Shown here: piece after piece, positions 36,501 through 64,000 of the stretch
Layout of the letters: each line of letters begins with the position of its first letter
Numbering within the stretch: the stretch's first letter is position 1
NCBI RefSeq assembly: GCF_002218065.1
Contig: NZ_BDUB01000001.1
Location: forward strand, 1,065,567 to 1,129,566
DNA from: Nodularia sp. NIES-3585
Lineage (GTDB): Bacteria; Cyanobacteriota; Cyanobacteriia; Cyanobacteriales; Nostocaceae
Length of the DNA: 64,000 nucleotides
Direction of reading: 5' to 3'
Notes under the pieces: generated by a model
Database searches by the model: none
Told to the model about the DNA's origin: nothing
Seen by the model: only the letters and a program-made list of their open reading frames with translations
Translations under genes and position numbers: made by a program

Positions 36501-37949
36501 ATGAGCATAAACGATTCTGTTGATGAGTTTGCCCGAATGAATCCAGAAAATCCCAAACTGGATTTGAAAACCAAACTAGCTTATGGCGCTGGAGATTTTG
36601 GCCCGGCTATTACTGGCAATATTTCCATATTTTTTCTGCTGATTTTCTTTACCAATGTGGCTGGGATTCCGGCTGGTTTAGCTGGTAGCGTTTTAATGAT
36701 TGGTAAAATCTGGGATGCTATCAACGATCCGATTATTGGGGTGTTGTCAGATAGAACTAAATCACGTCGCTGGGGTCGTCGTTTACCTTGGATGTTTTAC
36801 GGCGCAATCCCTTTTGGCATAATCTTTTTTTTGCAGTGGACTGTACCGCGTTTTAGTGCTGACCAGAGTAGTAATATGTGGCCACTGTTTTGGTATTACG
36901 TCGCCATTGGGTTACTATCTCAGGTGTTTTACACCGTTGTGAGTTTGCCTTATACAGCACTGACTCCAGAACTAACTCAAAATTATGATGAACGGACTAG
37001 TTTGAATAGCTTTCGCTTCGCTTTTTCGATTAGTGGCAGTATTTTATCGCTGATTTTAGCGCAAATTATTTTTTCTACCATTAGCGATCGCGAAGAACAA
37101 TATCTAGTTTTAGCCGCAGTTTGTGCGGTAATTTCGGTTTTGGCGTTATATGTCTGTATTTTCGGAGTCCGCGATCGCGTCTTAGCTTTTGAGGCCAAAC
37201 GCACCCAAACCGAACAACCTGCATCTATACCCTTCTTTGAACAACTAAAAATCGTCTTTAGCAATCGACCTTTTCTATTTGTAATTGGCATATATCTTTT
37301 TTCGTGGTTAGGAGTACAGGTGACAGCCACCACTATTCCTTATTTTGTCGTCAACTATATGCGTCTTAATGACTCAGATGTTCCCACAGTGATGATTGCA
37401 GTCCAAGGAACTGCCTTGTTGATGTTATTTGTTTGGAGCGCTTTGAGCCAGAAAATCGGCAAAAAAGTCGTTTATTTTCTGGGTATGAGTTCATGGATTA
37501 TCGCCGCAGGAGGACTGTTTTTTTTACGCCCTGGTCAAATAGGGTTGATGTATCTCCTGGCTTTCATGGCAGGTGTGGGCGTATCCACTGCTTATTTAGT
37601 TCCTTGGTCACTGATTCCAGATGTCATTGATTTAGATGAACTCCAAACCGGACAACGCCGAGAAGGCATTTTTTATGGTTTTATGGTTTTGCTGCAAAAG
37701 TTAGGTTTAGCTTTAGGAATATTTTTAGTAGGAAACGCCTTGCAAGCAGCTGGTTTCCAAGCAACTATCCCAGGACAAACTACACCCATACAACCCGAAT
37801 CAGCTTTAGTAGCCATCCGCATCGCCGTTGGTCCCTTACCGACAATTTTCTTAATTTGTGGTTTATTTCTCACATATTTTTACCCCATCACCCGTGAGAT
37901 GCACGCTGAAATTATGATGAAACTCAAAGCACGTCAATCTGAAATCTAA
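36501..37949 (+). CDS. GPH-family (glycoside-pentoside-hexuronide) cation symporter, MFS
   Basis: 482 residues from the ATG at 36501. Twelve hydrophobic segments; LAYGAGDFGPAITGNISIFFLLIFFTNVAG is the family's start, and DPIIGVLSDRTKSRRWGRRLPWM is the conserved loop 2-3. DVIDLDELQTGQRREGIFYGF, between helices 10 and 11, is also diagnostic. Members import sugars with Na+ or H+; the sugar is unknown. It shares its promoter region with the phosphoribosyltransferase gene on the other strand. Confidence 0.9.
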   Translation: MSINDSVDEFARMNPENPKLDLKTKLAYGAGDFGPAITGNISIFFLLIFFTNVAGIPAGLAGSVLMIGKIWDAINDPIIGVLSDRTKSRRWGRRLPWMFYGAIPFGIIFFLQWTVPRFSADQSSNMWPLFWYYVAIGLLSQVFYTVVSLPYTALTPELTQNYDERTSLNSFRFAFSISGSILSLILAQIIFSTISDREEQYLVLAAVCAVISVLALYVCIFGVRDRVLAFEAKRTQTEQPASIPFFEQLKIVFSNRPFLFVIGIYLFSWLGVQVTATTIPYFVVNYMRLNDSDVPTVMIAVQGTALLMLFVWSALSQKIGKKVVYFLGMSSWIIAAGGLFFLRPGQIGLMYLLAFMAGVGVSTAYLVPWSLIPDVIDLDELQTGQRREGIFYGFMVLLQKLGLALGIFLVGNALQAAGFQATIPGQTTPIQPESALVAIRIAVGPLPTIFLICGLFLTYFYPITREMHAEIMMKLKARQSEI

Positions 37950-38081
37950 AATCTAAAATCCAAAATTGTGTAATGCACTCATTGGACCTCCCATGACTAG
38001 ATGTCACGAGTGTACATCTGGCAAAAATCAAAATTGGACTATTATAGCTGAGTATTGAAATATTTGGATTGTAAAAACGCT

Positions 38082-38650: not shown

Positions 38651-39157
38651 ATGAATTACGTTGTTGCCGTGTTACCAGACCGTATCCAAGCCGAAGGCGC
38701 TTACTTAGCTCTAGAAGCCGAGGGTATCAAAAGCACTATCTTGGGTAGGGGTTATAAAACTGCTGACGAGTTTGGCTTGGTTGATCCCAAAGAGCAAGCC
38801 ATAAAGCAAGCAAAGCTGATGTCATACTGGCTAGTACCATTCGGCTTTTTTGCAGGTTTTACCTTCAGCCTGATTACAGGTTTAGATACCTTTGCTTGGG
38901 CGGGGGAAATTGGTAATCACATCGTTGGGGGACTGCTGGGCGCTGGTAGTGGCGCTATGGGTAGTGTGTTTGTGGGTGGTGGTGTTGGCTTAGTGCTGGG
39001 TGGTGGTGATGCTTTACCCTACCGCAATCGCTTAGATATGGGTAAATATATAGTTGTGGTTCAGGTTACTGAAGCAATTAGTCGGCAAGTAACCCGGATA
39101 TTACGTAAATTTGAGCCAGAAAATATTCAGGGTTATGCTGATACAAGCAACACTTAA
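38651..39157 (+). CDS. Conserved membrane protein with glycine-rich core
   Basis: 168 residues. The N-terminal part (MNYVVAVLPDRIQAEGAYLALEAEGI) has a ferredoxin-like look, as in small stress-related domains. The middle has two hydrophobic segments, WLVPFGFFAGFTFSLITG and a Gly-rich VGGLLGAGSGAMGSVFVGGGVGLVLGGG segment. The end returns to a soluble beta-alpha pattern (KYIVVVQVTEAISRQVTRIL). Function unknown. The 32 bases to the next gene are four AAAATTT heptamers, so the pair may be one operon. Confidence 0.68.
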   Translation: MNYVVAVLPDRIQAEGAYLALEAEGIKSTILGRGYKTADEFGLVDPKEQAIKQAKLMSYWLVPFGFFAGFTFSLITGLDTFAWAGEIGNHIVGGLLGAGSGAMGSVFVGGGVGLVLGGGDALPYRNRLDMGKYIVVVQVTEAISRQVTRILRKFEPENIQGYADTSNT

Positions 39158-39184
39158 AAATTTAAAATTTAAAATTTAAAATTT
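39157..39184. repeat. AAAATTT heptamer tandem repeat as intergenic spacer
   Basis: Four exact AAAATTT units run from the last base of the upstream stop codon to six bases before the next ATG, so the repeat forms almost the whole spacer. Confidence 0.9.
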
Positions 39185-42825: not shown

Positions 42826-44994
42826 TTACATACATGATTGTACTAAAGGCAACAGCCGACCTAATTGCTCTTGCCCATTTACGGCTAAGTCACTGTGACA
42901 TAAATAAACTTTTTCGTCTACACGAGACAGCAAATCTGCTAAGATTTTCCGCAATCTTTCTTCTTCTAGTAAATTTTCATCTTCTGCTGTCCATGGTTCG
43001 CCTAACCTGTTCCTCAAAAACAATGGGGCTGCAAATAGCGTCGCCGCACCACCTTTTGCCCATAGAGGAGAACCAGCATCTAACCAGAAATGCCAACGGT
43101 GAAATCTTCTACTAGAGCGATATTGAAAAATAGTTGCCAAGGTGACAGCTTTTCTAGTTGGACCGATGGGACGCAAGGGGTAAGGGTTGGCGGTAATAGT
43201 ACCACGTCGCAGCAAGTGTATAAATTCGGCACAGGTTGTGCTGATTTCTTTCCCTGCTATCCTGGGGGTTGTTTGTCGTAAACGGGTGTCAATTTCCCAA
43301 TAATGTTGGGCAGTTTCCAGTAATTCACGCAGTGCTGCCATTTGGTCGTAGGGAAGGCTGCTATCCTGAGAGATAAAATTCTGCATTGCCAGATATAACA
43401 GAGAAATGGGACTGGGAATCAAACGCTGTGCTTGTTGCGATCGCTGTTTTTCTAACCACTGTAAAATTTCCCCATAAGCTGTGGTGGCTGCATAGCCGAT
43501 GCGATCCCAGCGCTCAAATGCTGACACTGGTAGCAAGTGGGGATGGTCGGGATGAGGTACAAAACAATAATCTGCAATTAATCCGGCGCGTACTGGGTCG
43601 ATGCGAGTGGAGAGTGGGGAGTGGGGAGTGGGGAGTGGGGAGTGGGGAGTGGGGATTTCTCGTTTTCTACTTAAGACCACTAACATCTCGGCTACTTCAT
43701 CTCGATCTACGAGGCGACCTAAACCAGGATAGACTAGTGCCAGCATGGTGAGTAAGGCTCGAATCACTGGTGAACTAATCAGGGGGCGTTGGTCGTGGAG
43801 TGATTCAACTGGAATGTTTTGCTTATCCAGGATTTCTACCAAAGTATAACGCGCGATCGCATCTAAACCCGGTGCAATAATTGCCACATCTTCTGCTTGT
43901 ACTTGTCCCGATTTGATCGCATGAACAATTTCTGCTGCTGTTTTGCGTAACAATTCGGAGCGGGAGATGGTTTGAATTAACTGCACGGGGTCTGGTAAAC
44001 TCGACACCATCATTTGTTCTGTGACTAACTCCACCATGGGCATAAAAAGTTGCTGGGCTAGACTAGGTAAAGGTGATGTCGTTAATCTCTCAATTTGACA
44101 ACGCGCTCCTAAACCTTCTAAATAGTTAGGATCGGCTCCCAATCCTAAGCGCACTGCACCATCAGGGTTATAGCTAAAAGCACCTACGGCACCTTGATCT
44201 AACAAAAAGTCAAACAGTTGACGCGCTACTCCAGGATACTCATCGACATCATCTGCTAGTACAGCCTGATAGCGTTGAGTCAGGTGTTGTTGATAATTGC
44301 GATCGCCTAATAACTTCTGACTATACAGTTCAGTAATAATCCCATAACTCAGTAATCCCCTTTCTAAACACCAGTTGCGCCAATCTAGTAATAAAGATGC
44401 CAAAAACTCCGGTTCTAAATCTATGGCATTTTCTTCTAAGCCCCTGTGCAAAATCTGGCCAATATCTTCGCAGGGTGTACCACTATAAGCCGCCAATTGA
44501 AGTAAATCCAGAATCCGACGTACCAAACGGTACTCATTCACTCCCGCACGCCGCAAAGTGGCTACATCTAATTGGGAATGCCAAAGTTTAGTTGCTAATT
44601 CCTGTTCAGTTTCAGGGCGTAATCTTACCGGAAATTGTGCTTTGAGATTTAACGACTGAATCAATAAAGGCCAAAATAAAATAACTTCATCTTGAAAAAA
44701 ACCGAGCATCGTTTTGGCACGAACTGGATATTTTCCCTGAGTTGCAGTCACAATTTTATCAGCCAGACTACGGCGATTCTCACTATTGGCAGCTAAAACC
44801 AAAACTCCTGGTTCTGTCTTGGGAAGATATGAGACTTGTGATCTTCCTTTGCTTTTTTTATCCCCCGGTTTTTTAGTATAAGATGATTCAAAACTCTGAT
44901 GTTCATTTTGCAACCAATCACAAAAACTCTTTACCAAACGAGCCGTCTTACCACTGCGGCTAGCGCCAACAATCCAAATAGAATGAGAAATCAC
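42826..44994 (-). CDS. UvrD/AddB-like superfamily I helicase-nuclease relative, with a heptamer array inside
   Basis: 722 residues. Walker A is GASRSGKTARL near residue 10; VLVLAANSENRRSLAD is a second helicase-like block, and YQAVLADDVDEYP looks like the Walker B segment (usually DEFQD). LISSPVIRALLTMLAL fits the C-terminal motor half as in AddB. Cyanobacterial homologues are often annotated as recombinase-family protein. Around residues 450-465 the protein reads PTPHSPLPTPHSPL, encoded by a run of heptamers at 43605-43653, so the repeat has grown inside the gene while keeping the frame. The role is probably DNA recombination or repair; partners are not adjacent. Confidence 0.75.
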   Translation of the reverse strand: MISHSIWIVGASRSGKTARLVKSFCDWLQNEHQSFESSYTKKPGDKKSKGRSQVSYLPKTEPGVLVLAANSENRRSLADKIVTATQGKYPVRAKTMLGFFQDEVILFWPLLIQSLNLKAQFPVRLRPETEQELATKLWHSQLDVATLRRAGVNEYRLVRRILDLLQLAAYSGTPCEDIGQILHRGLEENAIDLEPEFLASLLLDWRNWCLERGLLSYGIITELYSQKLLGDRNYQQHLTQRYQAVLADDVDEYPGVARQLFDFLLDQGAVGAFSYNPDGAVRLGLGADPNYLEGLGARCQIERLTTSPLPSLAQQLFMPMVELVTEQMMVSSLPDPVQLIQTISRSELLRKTAAEIVHAIKSGQVQAEDVAIIAPGLDAIARYTLVEILDKQNIPVESLHDQRPLISSPVIRALLTMLALVYPGLGRLVDRDEVAEMLVVLSRKREIPTPHSPLPTPHSPLSTRIDPVRAGLIADYCFVPHPDHPHLLPVSAFERWDRIGYAATTAYGEILQWLEKQRSQQAQRLIPSPISLLYLAMQNFISQDSSLPYDQMAALRELLETAQHYWEIDTRLRQTTPRIAGKEISTTCAEFIHLLRRGTITANPYPLRPIGPTRKAVTLATIFQYRSSRRFHRWHFWLDAGSPLWAKGGAATLFAAPLFLRNRLGEPWTAEDENLLEEERLRKILADLLSRVDEKVYLCHSDLAVNGQEQLGRLLPLVQSCM
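43605..43653. repeat. GAGTGGG heptamer array inside a coding sequence
   Basis: One GAGTGGA unit and six perfect GAGTGGG units. Read from the minus strand, three heptamers encode PTPHSPL with no stop in that phase. Confidence 0.92.
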
Positions 44995-58409: not shown

Positions 58410-61400
58410 TTATACCATTATCAAAGAGGTTGAATTTTGCTCTTCTTGATTAATTAAATCATTGACAATAGAGAGAAATTCATGCTCTAAATAAGGCTTA
58501 GTTAAGTAAGCATTTGCACCCAGTTCTTGGGCAAGCTGACGATGTTTTTCGGCACTGCGGGAAGTGAGAATTACTATGGGTATATTGACGAAATGAGGGT
58601 TTTGGCGGAGATTACTTAACAATTCAAAACCATTCATTCGCGGCATTTCTAAGTCGGAGATAATCACCTGAATTTCTCCATGGCGTTGCAACTGTTCTAG
58701 AGCTTCTACACCATGTTGTGCTTGTATGACTTGATACCCTGATTTTTGCAGCGTTAGAGACAGGGTTTGCCTGAGACTAATGGCATCATCCACAACTAAA
58801 ATCACTTTGGGAGATTGATGATTTGGCTTGTGAGAATGATTTGGTAGTGCTTCTACAGTACTTGTGGGGGCAGAAGCATTCAATAAGGGCATATTTGGGG
58901 CAGTATACCCGGACATTGCTAAAGCTTTTTGCTCTGAAGGATCAGCTGTTGGTAGTGCGGCAATATCCAGCTTAATTGGGCTTTCTTTCGACTCCAGGAG
59001 TAATATAGCATCAATTACTAAGATCAGATTACCGTTGGCTAAACTACTACAACCATAAACATATTTTGGCGGAGCGATCGCACTTCCTAAAGGTCTAATT
59101 ACTAATTCTTGTTCACCAATTATTTGGTCAACTTCTATACCGAAAACTCTTTGATTTCGCCGTAGTAGCAGTACAGGATTCTTCATCACTCCTGGTTCAT
59201 GAGTAATTGATGCAGTGTCTAGTAAACTCGCACCATTAAATAATGAACCTTGATAGTCAATCAACTCAGAAAATTGATGCAAGCTGATCATAGTTTCATG
59301 ATCATCTATATTCAAATGTAAAACTCTTTTGCCTTCAAACTCCTTGACGTGCTGATTGGATGGAATCAATATTTTTTCGATACTGTCCAGAAGAAGAGCA
59401 TAAACAACCCCTCCCGTCTGGACTAACATTAATTTATCTGTAGTCATAGAAAAAGGTATTTTGAGGATAAAAGTTGTACCCTGACCAGGCAAAGATTGAA
59501 CTGAAATAGAGCCTTTAAGTGCTTGTAACTGAGAACGCACAATATCTAACCCCATACCACGTCCAGAAATTTCATTTACCTGATCCGCAGTGGATAATCC
59601 CGGAAAAAACATCAAATCTAACAATTCGGCTTGATCCGATTCAGAAAAATAGCCTCTAGGGTCATTTTCAGCTATAAAATTAAGTTCAATAGCTTTTTTG
59701 CGAATACTCTCAAAATTTAATCCCTGTCCATCATCCCGGACTTCAATAACAGTTTGACTACCCTGATGATAGGCACAAATTTCAATTAATCCTGACTCTG
59801 GTTTACCACGTTCTTGACGAACTTCTGGAGATTCTATACCGTGGTCAAAAGCATTACGGACTAAGTGCAGCAAGGGTTCGTAAAGTTTTTCAGCAATGGC
59901 TTTATCAACCAAGACTTCCGTACCTGTGAGTTTCAATTCCACCAGTTTGTTATAGACACTACCTAGTTTTTGCACCAACTGGGGTAAACGATTGAAAACA
60001 TTCCCCAGAGGTGATAACCGCGCTTCTACTAAATTATCTATGATACTAAACGCTAAATTCTGTTTTTGATCACTAATTTGAGTAGCTTGTCTGAGCAATA
60101 AATCCAGAGATTCTGTAGTTTCTTGTAATTGCATAACTTCTTCCATCGCTTCATGCAACGACAGATGAAATTCTGTATATACATCCATTTCCAAAGCATC
60201 AAATTTCACAGAGGAAAAATTTTGTGTCGGTTGGGATGTGAAATTTTGCATCTGCAAAGGTAAATCTCTTAATTGATTTAAAGTTGCTTGGTGTCTGTTA
60301 AATCGCTGTAATAGTTGTTCAAATATTTCTTGAATTTTTTCATCATATAACGTCCGCCGTTTTTGATGGATTAGTAATTCCCCGGCTAGATAATTAAGGT
60401 GTTGCAGTTTATCTACATCTACACGAATGAATGTCGGTTTGCGATAGGTTTTAGTTTCTGGTGACTGGGATTTATCTGCTTGTATTTGTTCGTTGTTTTG
60501 GATAGGTACATCAGCAATAGCTTCAATATCTGTTTCGATAATATCTGCAACCACCTGCTCACTGACAGCTAATGATTGATTAACTTCCTGATCATCAGTA
60601 AGATTTGGCTCAGATCCTCCTCCCCATATTTCTTCTACCAAGCTATCGGTTATGGGTAATTTAGTATTTGATATTTCTTTGAAAATTAGCAATTGCCTTA
60701 ATTTAGGACTGTCCAGCCAATTTTTTTCTTCGGTATTCACAGGGGAATACTTTTTATATTCTTTTGCTAATGTTCGGATTTGGTTTTGTAATGTTTGGAC
60801 TAGAATAATATAGCTATCAGATTGGTCAGATATATATTGAAATTTAGCAACTGCTAGCAGGATGATTAAAATTATCCCGTGGCGATAAAGACAAAGACTA
60901 TGGCTATCTTCTTCATCTTGGACAAAATCCAAAAAATCAGTTAACCAATTAGTAATATAATTTATTTGGTTATTTTTTTCTAATTTGGGAATAAGTAAAG
61001 ATAACTCAAGTTCTTGTTTGGGTATTTGCATCTGGTGATTAAACCAGCCAAAAATATAATAGATAACTTTTAAATATAATTTGGCAGTTGTTGGTTTTAT
61101 CTGTTCATTTTTAGTATTACCAGATGCCGTTAAAAAGTCATAAAATTGTTCGGCATTATTGAGAAAATTTCCAGTAGATCCCGATAACTCTTCATCTACC
61201 ACAGTTGTGAGTTTTTGCCACTCTGGGGAAAGTACACCTCCACAGATGCGATCGCCTGCTAGTACATCTTTTTGTGCCTGCTGTAAGTCCCTGAGAGCTA
61301 GTTCAGCAATCTGATATATTTGTTCAGGGTTGGCTTGCAGGGCTGCGATAATTGTCCGAGAAATTTCTTGCAGCCCTGGTAAATTTAAAGATTCTGCCAA

Positions 61401-61985
61401 TCCCAGAAAAACCTCAGCCTGAGAACCTAAAAAACCTTGCAAATCTTGATCATTGGGGGGATTATTAAGAGCTTCTGCAATGCTTTCTAAACGCTGCTTT
61501 ACCCCTGTTTCAAAAATTGATTGTACAATATCAAAACCCAATTCTTCAGAAGTGGGAATATGAGTTTCATTACCATAAGCCTCACCGAGTTTTTCTTGCA
61601 ATTGAGCAAAAACTAAAGTAGCTCTTTGCAAAAGTTCTTCATTATTAATAGTACTATCTGTCAGTTCTGTGGTTATGGCTAGGTTCAGACATTCATAAGC
61701 TTGAAATAAAAGTGTTTGCAGTTCAGCATCAATTACCACATTTGGGTTATAAAGGGCTTTAAATACATCTTCTAAAGAATGGGAAATCATCTTAATGATC
61801 TCTAGCCCAACATTAGCAGATCCACCTTTAAGGGTATGAGTTGCCCGCATTAAGTTATGAACTTTAGCAATACTAAATTCTTCTAATAAACTAAACAGTT
61901 CTTGCTCAATGATTTGCAATAAATCTGGTGCTTCTGCTAGAAAATATACATAGCCTTGTTCACGAATTTCTGCATCTGTAATCAT
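58410..61985 (-). CDS. Hybrid CheA-type histidine kinase with C-terminal receiver (taxis)
   Basis: 1191 residues. Hpt domain at the N-terminus with MRATHTLKGGSANVG, phospho-His50. Long helical middle region; then a CheA-type dimerisation/ATPase block: HLVRNAFDHGIESPEVR, VRDDGQGLNFESI and GRGMGLDIVRSQLQALKG. A CheW-like domain follows (about 860-990, QTGGVVYALLLDSIEKI), then a receiver from about 1062 with ILVVDDA, the phosphorylated Asp in ISDLEMP and the Lys in YLTKPY. This is the PilL/PixL/HmpE-type architecture used for type IV pili-based motility of hormogonia. A heptamer array starts five bases before its ATG, so there is no Shine-Dalgarno. The upstream MCP gene is in the same direction. 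Confidence 0.93.
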   Translation of the reverse strand: MITDAEIREQGYVYFLAEAPDLLQIIEQELFSLLEEFSIAKVHNLMRATHTLKGGSANVGLEIIKMISHSLEDVFKALYNPNVVIDAELQTLLFQAYECLNLAITTELTDSTINNEELLQRATLVFAQLQEKLGEAYGNETHIPTSEELGFDIVQSIFETGVKQRLESIAEALNNPPNDQDLQGFLGSQAEVFLGLAESLNLPGLQEISRTIIAALQANPEQIYQIAELALRDLQQAQKDVLAGDRICGGVLSPEWQKLTTVVDEELSGSTGNFLNNAEQFYDFLTASGNTKNEQIKPTTAKLYLKVIYYIFGWFNHQMQIPKQELELSLLIPKLEKNNQINYITNWLTDFLDFVQDEEDSHSLCLYRHGIILIILLAVAKFQYISDQSDSYIILVQTLQNQIRTLAKEYKKYSPVNTEEKNWLDSPKLRQLLIFKEISNTKLPITDSLVEEIWGGGSEPNLTDDQEVNQSLAVSEQVVADIIETDIEAIADVPIQNNEQIQADKSQSPETKTYRKPTFIRVDVDKLQHLNYLAGELLIHQKRRTLYDEKIQEIFEQLLQRFNRHQATLNQLRDLPLQMQNFTSQPTQNFSSVKFDALEMDVYTEFHLSLHEAMEEVMQLQETTESLDLLLRQATQISDQKQNLAFSIIDNLVEARLSPLGNVFNRLPQLVQKLGSVYNKLVELKLTGTEVLVDKAIAEKLYEPLLHLVRNAFDHGIESPEVRQERGKPESGLIEICAYHQGSQTVIEVRDDGQGLNFESIRKKAIELNFIAENDPRGYFSESDQAELLDLMFFPGLSTADQVNEISGRGMGLDIVRSQLQALKGSISVQSLPGQGTTFILKIPFSMTTDKLMLVQTGGVVYALLLDSIEKILIPSNQHVKEFEGKRVLHLNIDDHETMISLHQFSELIDYQGSLFNGASLLDTASITHEPGVMKNPVLLLRRNQRVFGIEVDQIIGEQELVIRPLGSAIAPPKYVYGCSSLANGNLILVIDAILLLESKESPIKLDIAALPTADPSEQKALAMSGYTAPNMPLLNASAPTSTVEALPNHSHKPNHQSPKVILVVDDAISLRQTLSLTLQKSGYQVIQAQHGVEALEQLQRHGEIQVIISDLEMPRMNGFELLSNLRQNPHFVNIPIVILTSRSAEKHRQLAQELGANAYLTKPYLEHEFLSIVNDLINQEEQNSTSLIMV

Positions 61986-61990
61986 AAGAA

Positions 61991-62060
61991 GGGAGTGGGG
62001 AGTGGGGAGTGGAGAGTAGGGAGTGGGGAGTGGGGAGTGGGGAATGGGGAGTGGGGAATG
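61991..62060. repeat. GGGAGTG heptamer array, 10 units
   Basis: Ten consecutive 7-bp units with small variants (GAGAGTA, GGGAATG). It lies between the start of the CheA-type gene and the stop of the four-helix-bundle gene, inverted relative to the array at 62471. Confidence 0.92.
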
Positions 62061-62077
62061 GAAAATGTAAAAACAGC

Positions 62078-62467
62078 CTATTCCCTATTCTCCTTTTTCT
62101 GTAAAGAACGAATGAGCGCCCGGAGTAGTCTTCCTACAGATTCACATTGTTTCAAAATTGGACTGGCTGATTGAGGATCTGTAAGTCGAATTTTGGCTCT
62201 ACACGATAGTAACAAATGAGTTTCTAGTTCTTTGAGAGAGCCTTGTGCTATTCGTAAAAATTTTATGTATTCCATGCGATATTCCCTTCCATAACCCTCA
62301 GCAATATTTGCTGGAATTGATGTAGATGCCCTACGAATTTGTGAAGTCATTCCGTAGAGTTCCTCTTTTGGAAACGTCATTGTTAGCTCATAGCAAGCTT
62401 CAGCTAAATTCATGCCTTCTTGCCAAACTGTTAAATCTTGATAAGAGCGAATTTGATAACTTGTCAT
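62078..62467 (-). CDS. Four-helix-bundle protein (S23/IVP family)
   Basis: 129 residues. YQDLTVWQEGMNLAEACYELTMTFPKEELYGMTSQIRRASTSIPANIAEGYGR is the family hallmark. The fold is a four-helix bundle first known from 23S rRNA intervening sequences, where its role is unclear, and it also occurs at many ordinary loci. Here it is not in rRNA. It lies between two taxis genes on the same strand, with heptamer arrays of opposite orientation directly on both sides (62471-62519 starts 3 bases before its ATG; 61991-62060 follows 17 bases past its stop). The unit looks like an inserted cassette. Confidence 0.92.
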   Translation of the reverse strand: MTSYQIRSYQDLTVWQEGMNLAEACYELTMTFPKEELYGMTSQIRRASTSIPANIAEGYGREYRMEYIKFLRIAQGSLKELETHLLLSCRAKIRLTDPQSASPILKQCESVGRLLRALIRSLQKKENRE

Positions 62468-62470
62468 TGC

Positions 62471-62519
62471 CTACTCCCTACTCCCTACTCCCTACTCCCT
62501 ACTCCCTACTCCCTACTCC
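62471..62519. repeat. CTACTCC heptamer array, 7 units
   Basis: Seven perfect CTACTCC units, i.e. GGAGTAG on the minus strand, inverted relative to the 61991-62060 array. They fill the gap between the MCP stop and the four-helix-bundle gene start. Confidence 0.93.
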
Positions 62520-62527
62520 CCGATTAA

Positions 62528-64000
62528 TTAATTGACTTTAAACTTACTAGCAGTTGCTAATAACCCTTGTGCCATTCCTGATAAGTCTTGTAAGACCAGG
62601 GAAATTTCTTGAGATTCGGTAAAGGTCTTGTTAGCGATTTCTGCTACATCTTGCATTGATGCTGTTACCGTTACAGATTGTCCCATCTGTTTTTGGGTGG
62701 CTGCGGTAATTCTCTGGATTAGCTGACTGATTTCGGCAGTTGCAGAAACAATTGCATTCAAGTTTTGCCGGGTTTCACTCACAAAGTTTGTTCCTTCAAC
62801 TACCTGCTGAATCCCTGTTTCCATGGCCACTGCTACTTCTCCAGTTTCAGTTTGAATTTCTTGGACTAATTTTTCAATTTCAATTGTGGCTGCGGCTGAT
62901 TGGCGAGATAAAGAACGAACTTCATCGGCTACCACTGCAAAGCCTTTACCATATTCACCGGCGCGAGTGGCTTCAATAGCTGCATTTAACGCCAGTACGT
63001 TGGTCTGTGTGGCGAAATTGCTGATTAAATTCACTACCTTGGAGATTTTTTGCGAAGATTCACTGAGGCGTTTAATTTTTTTACTGGTTTGGGCGACGGT
63101 TTCACGAATTCCTTGGATGGCTTGAACTGTTTGGTTCATTGCTGCATCACCAGATTCTACGGTTTGGTTAGCTTTTTGTAACGCTAATTGCACCAAATCA
63201 GCGTTAGTTACCACAGCTTGGGTAGAGTCTACCATCTGTTGAATATCGTTGAGGGCTGTGGTGATTTCTTCCGATTGTTGTTTTGCTAGATTTGTCAGTC
63301 CCGCCAATGAAGCATCACTACTGCTGGAAGTTTGGGCTACTTTTTGGGAAGTGGTTTGTACTTGGATGACAATTTGCCGCAGTGCTTGCAAAGTATTGTT
63401 ATAGGCATCCGCAATTGTACCGAGTTCGTCTTCTGTAATTGGGGCGCGGACTGTTAAATCTCCATTCAGGGCTGGTCTGAGGGCTGTTAGCAGTTGAATT
63501 GATCGTTGTTGCAGTAATTCTTTGGCGGCTTTTTCTCGTGTTGCGGCTTCTGCTAGTTTTGCTGATTGTGCCTGTAGTTGTTGCAAATATTCAGTCTGTT
63601 GTAATGCTAGCCCTAGCTGGTCACCAATACGTGCTAATAAGGTGGCTTGGGATTCTTCCCAATCACGAGGGCTGGAGTTTTGATAAACTGCGAACAAGCC
63701 CCATAATTGTTCTCCAGAGAATATAGGAACTATGATGTAAGCTTTGATTTCAAATTGCTCTAAAATTTCAATGTGGCAAGGAGAATGATCTACTTTATAT
63801 ATATCATTAGCAACAAAGCTTTCACCTTTGGCATATCTACCGCCCTGAGTTTCTTGTAAGTGGCTATCATCCCAAATGGTTTTGATATCAACGCCTACTA
63901 GTTTTACCCAGTTATTTCCTACTGATTCAGCGATAAATTCACCACCCCAATCAGGATTGAAGCGATAAATAGCGACGCGATCGCATCTTAGTAATTGGCG
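62528..64000 (-). CDS. GAF-domain methyl-accepting chemotaxis protein (PixJ/PtxD-like photoreceptor candidate), partial
   Basis: 491 residues are visible; the frame is open to the right edge, so the N-terminus is outside. A GAF domain comes first ([30 protein letters not shown]). It contains [11 protein letters not shown], a Cys-His pair at about residue 75-76 of the visible part (codons 63778-63773), where cyanobacteriochrome GAF domains bind bilin. A coiled coil and a HAMP-like unit ([20 protein letters not shown]) lead to the MCP signalling domain with [37 protein letters not shown]. It feeds the downstream CheA-type kinase; together they resemble phototaxis clusters of motile filamentous cyanobacteria. 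Confidence 0.9.

Follow-up and report, generated by a model that had tools for sequence, protein, structure and literature searches.

About half of the sampled S23 genes, from many bacterial groups, lie between matched, inward-facing arrays of a 7-base (sometimes 8-base) unit, which on the sense strand is G-rich before the gene and C-rich after it. With moderate confidence, we regard the array-S23-array arrangement as an inherited, probably mobile hairpin element, kin of the intervening sequences of rRNA genes. One copy lies in the stretch of DNA that we analysed, 64,000 nucleotides of the Nodularia sp. NIES-3585 contig NZ_BDUB01000001.1, referred to here as the window.

In the window the element occupies the gap between an MCP gene and cheA (Table 1). 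Read in the sense of the gene, it consists of GGGAGTA x7, the gene and CACTCCC x10, so that the two arrays face each other; by period scan the downstream array continues to 62072. The first-pass annotation had described an S23/IVP gene filling this gap between facing heptamer arrays of 7 and 10 units, and the TRF arrays and the profile matches bear this out. The protein belongs to the S23/IVP family by both PF05635 (E 3e-35, 121.1 bits, curated cut-off 33.8) and TIGR02436 (E 2.9e-36, 124 bits, cut-off 24), and its predicted monomer is a four-helix bundle with, by fold comparison, an Avd-type fold. The arrays had been placed 3 bases from the ATG and 17 from the stop codon; they are indeed close, and the exact spacers are 2 bases upstream and 16 bases between the stop codon and the TRF array, with 5 more between the downstream array and the cheA ATG. 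The claim that cheA has lost its Shine-Dalgarno sequence to the array did not survive comparison, since, by eye, the junctions without arrays (G014, G006 and G032) also lack a clear one.

Table 1. Features of the S23 locus, in window positions.
Feature	Position	Strand	Basis or remark
MCP-side upstream neighbour: GAF + MCP-signal protein	62528..64000	-	stop at 62528; runs past window end
Upstream array, GGGAGTA x7.3 (gene sense)	62470..62520	-	TRF, 100% matches
S23/IVP (four-helix-bundle) gene, 129 aa	62078..62467	-	ORF + profile matches
Downstream array, CACTCCC x10.1 (gene sense), faces upstream array	61991..62061	-	TRF, 89% matches
CheA-type hybrid kinase, 1191 aa, downstream neighbour	58410..61985	-	ORF + profile matches; start at 61985

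In the predicted RNA fold of the window junction (-180.2 kcal/mol, z -6.75) the two arrays form the stem, and the facing arrays thus close an ORF-containing loop by terminal inverted repeats. The 23S rRNA intervening sequences with an S23p ORF, as presented in passages of PMC4990558, likewise hold an S23-family ORF in the loop of a hairpin with terminal inverted repeats. The window element differs from them in that it sits between two protein genes, MCP and cheA, and not in 23S rRNA, in that both of its arms are tandem heptamer arrays, and in that its unit is lineage-specific. Outside the window arrays we found neither terminal inverted repeats (TIRs) with a target duplication (best outside score 9.5 within 250 bases) nor the ISKra4-type TIR described below, and a search of 50,697 phage records with the protein gave no match (E 1e-5). 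The heptamer itself is very common in the window genome, where a trimer with at most 2 mismatches occurs 428 times forward and 387 times in reverse (1 and 0 for the reversed-pattern control), so a lone array beside a gene is unremarkable. Other heptamer arrays, of several unit types, lie away from S23 in the window at 494-537, 37936-37966, 39157-39184 and 43605-43655.

To describe the flanks of S23 genes in the window's family, the Nostocaceae, we compared the 150 bases upstream of each gene with the reverse complement of the 150 bases downstream; the thresholds were chosen by us and are unequal, a score of 18 for the family and 16 for the other phyla and the gammaproteobacterial sample. PF05635 is present in 55 of 60 sampled family genomes, with 1 to 23 matches per positive genome. 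The sample comprised 130 loci, including other members of the genus, with 131 genes; loci were picked among the matches listed, mostly by descending HMM score, and high-scoring S23 members are therefore over-represented. Removal of duplicates and of short or N-containing flanks left 119 loci with full distinct flanks. Among the matches listed, inverted flanks with a score of at least 18 were present at 66 of the 119 S23 loci, compared with 1 of 328 control ORFs from twenty 20-kb stretches plus the window; 53 of the 119 loci had none at that score. When the same flanks were scored as direct repeats the counts were 1/119 and 5/328, and exchanging downstream flanks between S23 loci gave an inverted match in 4.1%. 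DUF433, a multi-copy small family of the same group, had inverted flanks in 0 of 28 usable cases (29 taken). After homologous loci were merged into 69 clusters, 47 still had at least one inverted-flank member.

Period-7 arrays on both sides were also present at 66 of the 119 loci, and in 57 of these 66 the two arrays match as inverted repeats (at least 6 of 7 positions), in none as direct repeats, while array pairs taken across loci match in 10.6%. The first-pass annotation had suggested looking for other S23 genes within heptamer arrays and at the orientation of the arrays around them; both searches gave positive answers, in the 66 family loci with inverted flanks and in the uniformly facing orientation of the matched pairs. 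In the sense of the gene, 69 of 73 upstream arms are G-rich. As raw counts, the upstream neighbour is co-directional with S23 in 96/114 loci and the downstream neighbour in 72/107. Mostly co-directional neighbours are the expectation for a gene transcribed by read-through with a G-rich array as ribosome site, and the upstream array could double as the ribosome site of the S23 gene.

The arrangement is not a quirk of Nostoc, which the samples from other phyla and from gammaproteobacteria rule out. A scan of named genomes found 585 relatives; the best 80, which span many phyla, were taken, and 75 of them were kept after short flanks were removed; the odd-length ORFs L252, L260, L298, L311 and L313 were flagged and retained where their flanks were long enough. 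In this best-80-of-585 set, inverted flanks at score 16 were found at 36 of 66 non-cyanobacterial S23 loci versus 0 of 133 neighbour ORFs, leaving 30/66 without them; direct repeats occurred at 4/66 and 0/133, and swapped partners matched in 1.25%. The best period of the flanks in the scan was 7 in 55 cases, 8 in 8 and 9 in 1; period 8 rather than 7 is seen in the flanks of L254, L269, L270, L274, L305 and L308.

The gammaproteobacterial sample was the class of a Thiodictyon genome (class taken from the record name), with 369 genomes, of which 41 have an XCC0516-like S23; XCC0516 itself was not found among the 369 (best identity 60%), and its fragment matches 28 of 72,556 plasmid records. Thirty loci were reduced to 25 by excluding by hand L349 (a repeat of L285) and L364 (contig edge) and by dropping three with short flanks. 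Inverted flanks at score 16 were present at 15 of the 25 S23 loci versus 2 of 44 neighbour ORFs, and direct repeats at 2/25 and 2/44. Also in these samples the upstream arm is G-rich in sense (36/36 non-cyanobacterial, 14/15 gammaproteobacterial). A match to an rRNA family at gathering score was found at 0 of 20 chosen loci, with one tRNA found. Taken together, the ORF and neighbour-ORF controls, the swapped partners, the direct-repeat counts and DUF433 rule out a chance origin of the flanks.

The sequence of the unit follows the protein. We tested this on 62 S23 genes that have matched arrays, restricting the pairs to those without DNA or protein homology in their flanks. At such unrelated sites, the more alike two proteins are, the more alike are their units (Mantel r 0.52, p 0.0005, 2000 permutations). 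The result is much alike when the protein filter on the flanks is dropped, and without the largest subfamily r is 0.59 (p 0.001). S23 pairs at least 80% identical, all of them between genomes, share their unit in 36 of 38 cases, made up of 25/25 from one eight-locus subfamily, some loci of which are orthologous, and 11/13 from outside it. Pairs below 50% identity share it in 25 of 1539 cases between genomes and in 0 of 24 within one genome; the genome therefore does not set the unit, and an array type dictated by the genome is ruled out. Of 91 gene-less arrays, 33 match a unit that flanks S23 in the same genome, where 17.4 would be expected (p 0.003). The agreement between unit and protein could reflect either recognition or plain co-inheritance through shared descent.

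The MCP-cheA junction was surveyed in 30 genomes, including that of the window; two could not be delimited, the upstream ORF of G068 is unlike MCP, and in the 28 delimited junctions the states and arrays were classed by eye. An S23-family gene is present in 9 of the 28, all nine with arrays, and absent from 19, which include two congeners. The window's subfamily, with GGGAGTR arrays, is found in G000, G001, G002, G005 and G026, one arm being decayed in G002. A second subfamily, whose arrays are ATTTTRG, occupies the junction in G010, G022 and G024 (the last with an in-frame stop), and a third with GAGTTRG arrays in G016; the junction genes of G010, G016, G022 and G024 also pass our HMM. Of the remaining junctions, several contain facing arrays without a gene and the others contain none. 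Additionally, G042 is a further junction case of the window's subfamily, and G037 has S23 at a paralogous MCP-cheA junction. The surveyed junction is thus occupied, in different genera, by three S23 subfamilies that each have a heptamer of their own.

An alternative reading of the window locus would be that S23 is an old member of the taxis operon with the arrays as chance neighbours. The subfamily-A gene does stand at the junction in six genomes of four genera (G000-G002, G005, G026 and G042), always in the sense of the operon. The first-pass annotation had named presence of the gene in all relatives, without arrays, as the finding that would count against a cassette; the 28-junction comparison gave the reverse. 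The gene-less congeners and this comparison refute the strong form of the operon reading, other S23 subfamilies hold the junction elsewhere, and S23 at other sites has inverted flanks in about half of the cases too, so we consider the reading very improbable. Simple vertical descent also fits poorly, because the order of similarity is reversed between the two proteins (S23 80% identical to that of the window in G026 and 75% in G005, CheA 69% and 76%) and because genera with a closer CheA (G014, G029, G010 and G032) are without the window's S23 subfamily at the junction. From these sequence comparisons, the junction looks like a repeated landing place.

Within the genus, G000, G001 and G002 have the S23 gene at the junction, and G003 and G004 are without it. 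The first-pass annotation had suggested looking there for strains with no insert. Gene-less strains do exist, but no array-free empty site was seen at this junction within the genus, as G003 and G004 retain facing arrays with other facing arrays nested inside. Comparison of other loci gave several states. At L048, 5' of an SPFH-type gene (named by inspection), G001 has array-gene-array, G000 about one unit and G003 other filler. At L003 the gene-less congeners retain the right arm only. At the obg site two congeners have S23 with GTCATTG-type arrays and three have a different, gene-less hairpin. Heptamer arrays without S23 are common: we counted 69 arrays in 464 kb sampled, the two of the window included, and among adjoining array pairs less than 600 bp apart, the pair of the window included, 14 of 18 have the G..C facing polarity.

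Such gene-less pairs in the background, the empty facing arrays of G003 and G004 and the other hairpin at obg are what would be expected if S23 were a passive passenger, brought by insertion sequences, MITEs or recombination into loops of pre-existing heptamer hairpins to which it is otherwise unrelated. Against this, the unit type tracks the S23 lineage even where the sites are unrelated, no unit is shared by dissimilar S23 genes of one genome, the pattern holds in phyla whose neighbouring ORFs are without inverted flanks (0/158), the comparable small family DUF433 does not sit in arrays, and in G000 the L048 locus has neither arrays nor gene except for about one unit. We therefore hold the passenger explanation to be unlikely, and retain the inherited hairpin element, of which the gene-less facing arrays may be loop-deleted or non-autonomous forms.

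Ordinary transposons carry some S23 units, in three genomes, and the arrays are the commoner feature. In G056 the loci L105 and L106 are 547-bp copies with one mismatch between them; beyond the arrays they have imperfect 21-bp TIRs, and their target duplications measure 9 and 8 bases. L043 of G003 has a similar TIR pair and an 8-base target duplication (by eye). These are ISKra4-type MITEs carrying array-S23-array from two S23 subfamilies. The TIR was traced to an element of about 1975 bp whose transposase is of ISKra4 type (E 1.2e-32). The match scores 113.6 bits (cut-off 205), with the ORF truncated at the end of the locus. Since S23 lies inside such MITEs, L105, L106 and L043 were probably moved by an ordinary transposase. 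In G022, seven S23 copies (L092-L098) are passengers after a transposase end, which we take to be ISL3-like, with an array on one side only.

Analysis of these loci raises the possibility that conventional transposons (ISKra4-type MITEs and other insertion sequences) carry array-S23-array as standard cargo and account for all of its movement, and that the arrays serve expression only, as ribosome site or mRNA-stabilising hairpin. The three MITE loci with their traced transposase and the seven G022 copies agree with it. However, an inverted repeat scoring at least 16 outside the arrays was found at only 3 of 62 array-flanked loci, one of which is a further array; the test undercounts, because it missed L043, but outside TIRs as a general rule are ruled out. 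In addition, G036 has four copies of one subfamily at unrelated places, three in ATTGGTA-type arrays and one with a drifted unit (by eye), and in two of them that were aligned (84% identity over 516 aligned positions) the homology begins and stops inside the arrays. The cargo explanation appears to us quite improbable. The first-pass annotation had seen a small mobile cassette with array ends. What stands of this is that the arrays belong with the gene across the family and phyla and that its presence at the junction varies; what does not stand so simply is the cassette as a whole, as gene-less congeners keep arrays and some units are cargo of insertion sequences or MITEs.

For the inherited hairpin element, we infer movement by its own means and recognition by S23 of its own arrays, although in some genomes S23 units are cargo of insertion sequences or MITEs and movement therefore need not be its own. 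In the process that we propose, array-gene-array would be copied or moved as one unit, as a hairpin. The arms would pair as DNA or RNA and template each other, which would keep the two arms alike while units drift between lineages, and the S23 ring may bind the paired arms or the mRNA and aid copying. The S23 gene itself is probably transcribed by read-through, with the G-rich array providing its ribosome site. The element, of array, S23 gene and array only, has no gene for a copying enzyme, and we know of no catalytic site in S23. The intervening sequences of 23S rRNA would be members of the element that landed in rRNA. The Avd accessory protein of diversity-generating retroelements, whose fold S23 has, is a subunit of a reverse-transcriptase complex, whereas the two neighbours of the window S23 are MCP and CheA.

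A wider proposal, which is tentative and which we would sooner doubt than accept, is that S23 is the specificity protein of bacteria-wide selfish hairpin elements with arm-templated or repeat-added heptamer ends, each lineage recognising its own heptamer. On this view the inward G-rich polarity, which head-to-head telomere fusions share, and the Avd fold would together point to repeats being added from a template, or to reverse transcription, at broken 3' ends, with S23 as a possible helper. One system would then comprise many of the dispersed heptamer hairpins in cyanobacteria and xanthomonads, S23 genes that stand alone and the rRNA intervening sequences. The passages of PMC4990558 on rRNA intervening sequences call their function and origin unclear, describe for the 23S rRNA intervening sequence of Coxiella burnetii terminal inverted repeats and, immediately ahead of the S23 ORF, two to three heptamers (GACAGAT) in tandem, and present a solved Xanthomonas relative of S23 (XCC0516) as a homopentamer forming a pentameric ring.

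The arrays are of the same kind as the G-rich heptamer arrays of Nostoc and Xanthomonas in PMC4692102. The main text of that paper gives 70 and 75 convergent array pairs for two Xanthomonas genomes and, for the unit searched there, no more than a few inverted pairs in Nostoc PCC 7120; it reports that heptamer repeats are generally not found with mobile elements, leaves the abundant arrays unexplained and contains no occurrence of S23 or IVP. S23 is not mentioned in PMC4679880 either. The element resembles REPIN/RAYT, as set out in portions of PMC3116915, in that a gene is flanked by short repeats, inverted gene-less doublets occur elsewhere and the repeat type follows the protein lineage. Unlike REPIN/RAYT, it has no tyrosine (HuH/Y1) transposase, the gene between the window arrays being S23, and its ends are tandem 7-mers and not palindromic REPs. 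Among the matches listed in the open literature, we found none that connects S23 genes at large with inverted heptamers on their flanks. The STRR heptamers of cyanobacteria are arrays of the same kind. A lineage-specific tie between S23 and heptamer across phyla would join the problems of the rRNA intervening sequences and of the heptamer arrays and make both testable, as the flanks of any S23 gene predict which heptamer its protein should bind. Should S23 act on its arrays, the element would represent a type of mobile DNA that ends in tandem repeats and has no known transposase.

Some further S23 copies were recorded. An array-less copy is found at one conserved place in all five congeners (L002, L038, L039, L041 and L045) and is possibly domesticated; as a single case, it fits the idea that arrays mark the mobile copies. 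The pair L390 and L392 of G022 is 93.6% identical, at unrelated places and without arrays (by eye). At L004, about 1340-1420, a one-array S23 lies beside the apparent start of a REP-associated transposase gene (by eye). Finally, G036 contains S23-derived repeats (L385, L387, L389 and L393) that are dispersed and broken, reach about 437 bases at most and have GGAAGAA-type ends; they are possibly a non-autonomous family.
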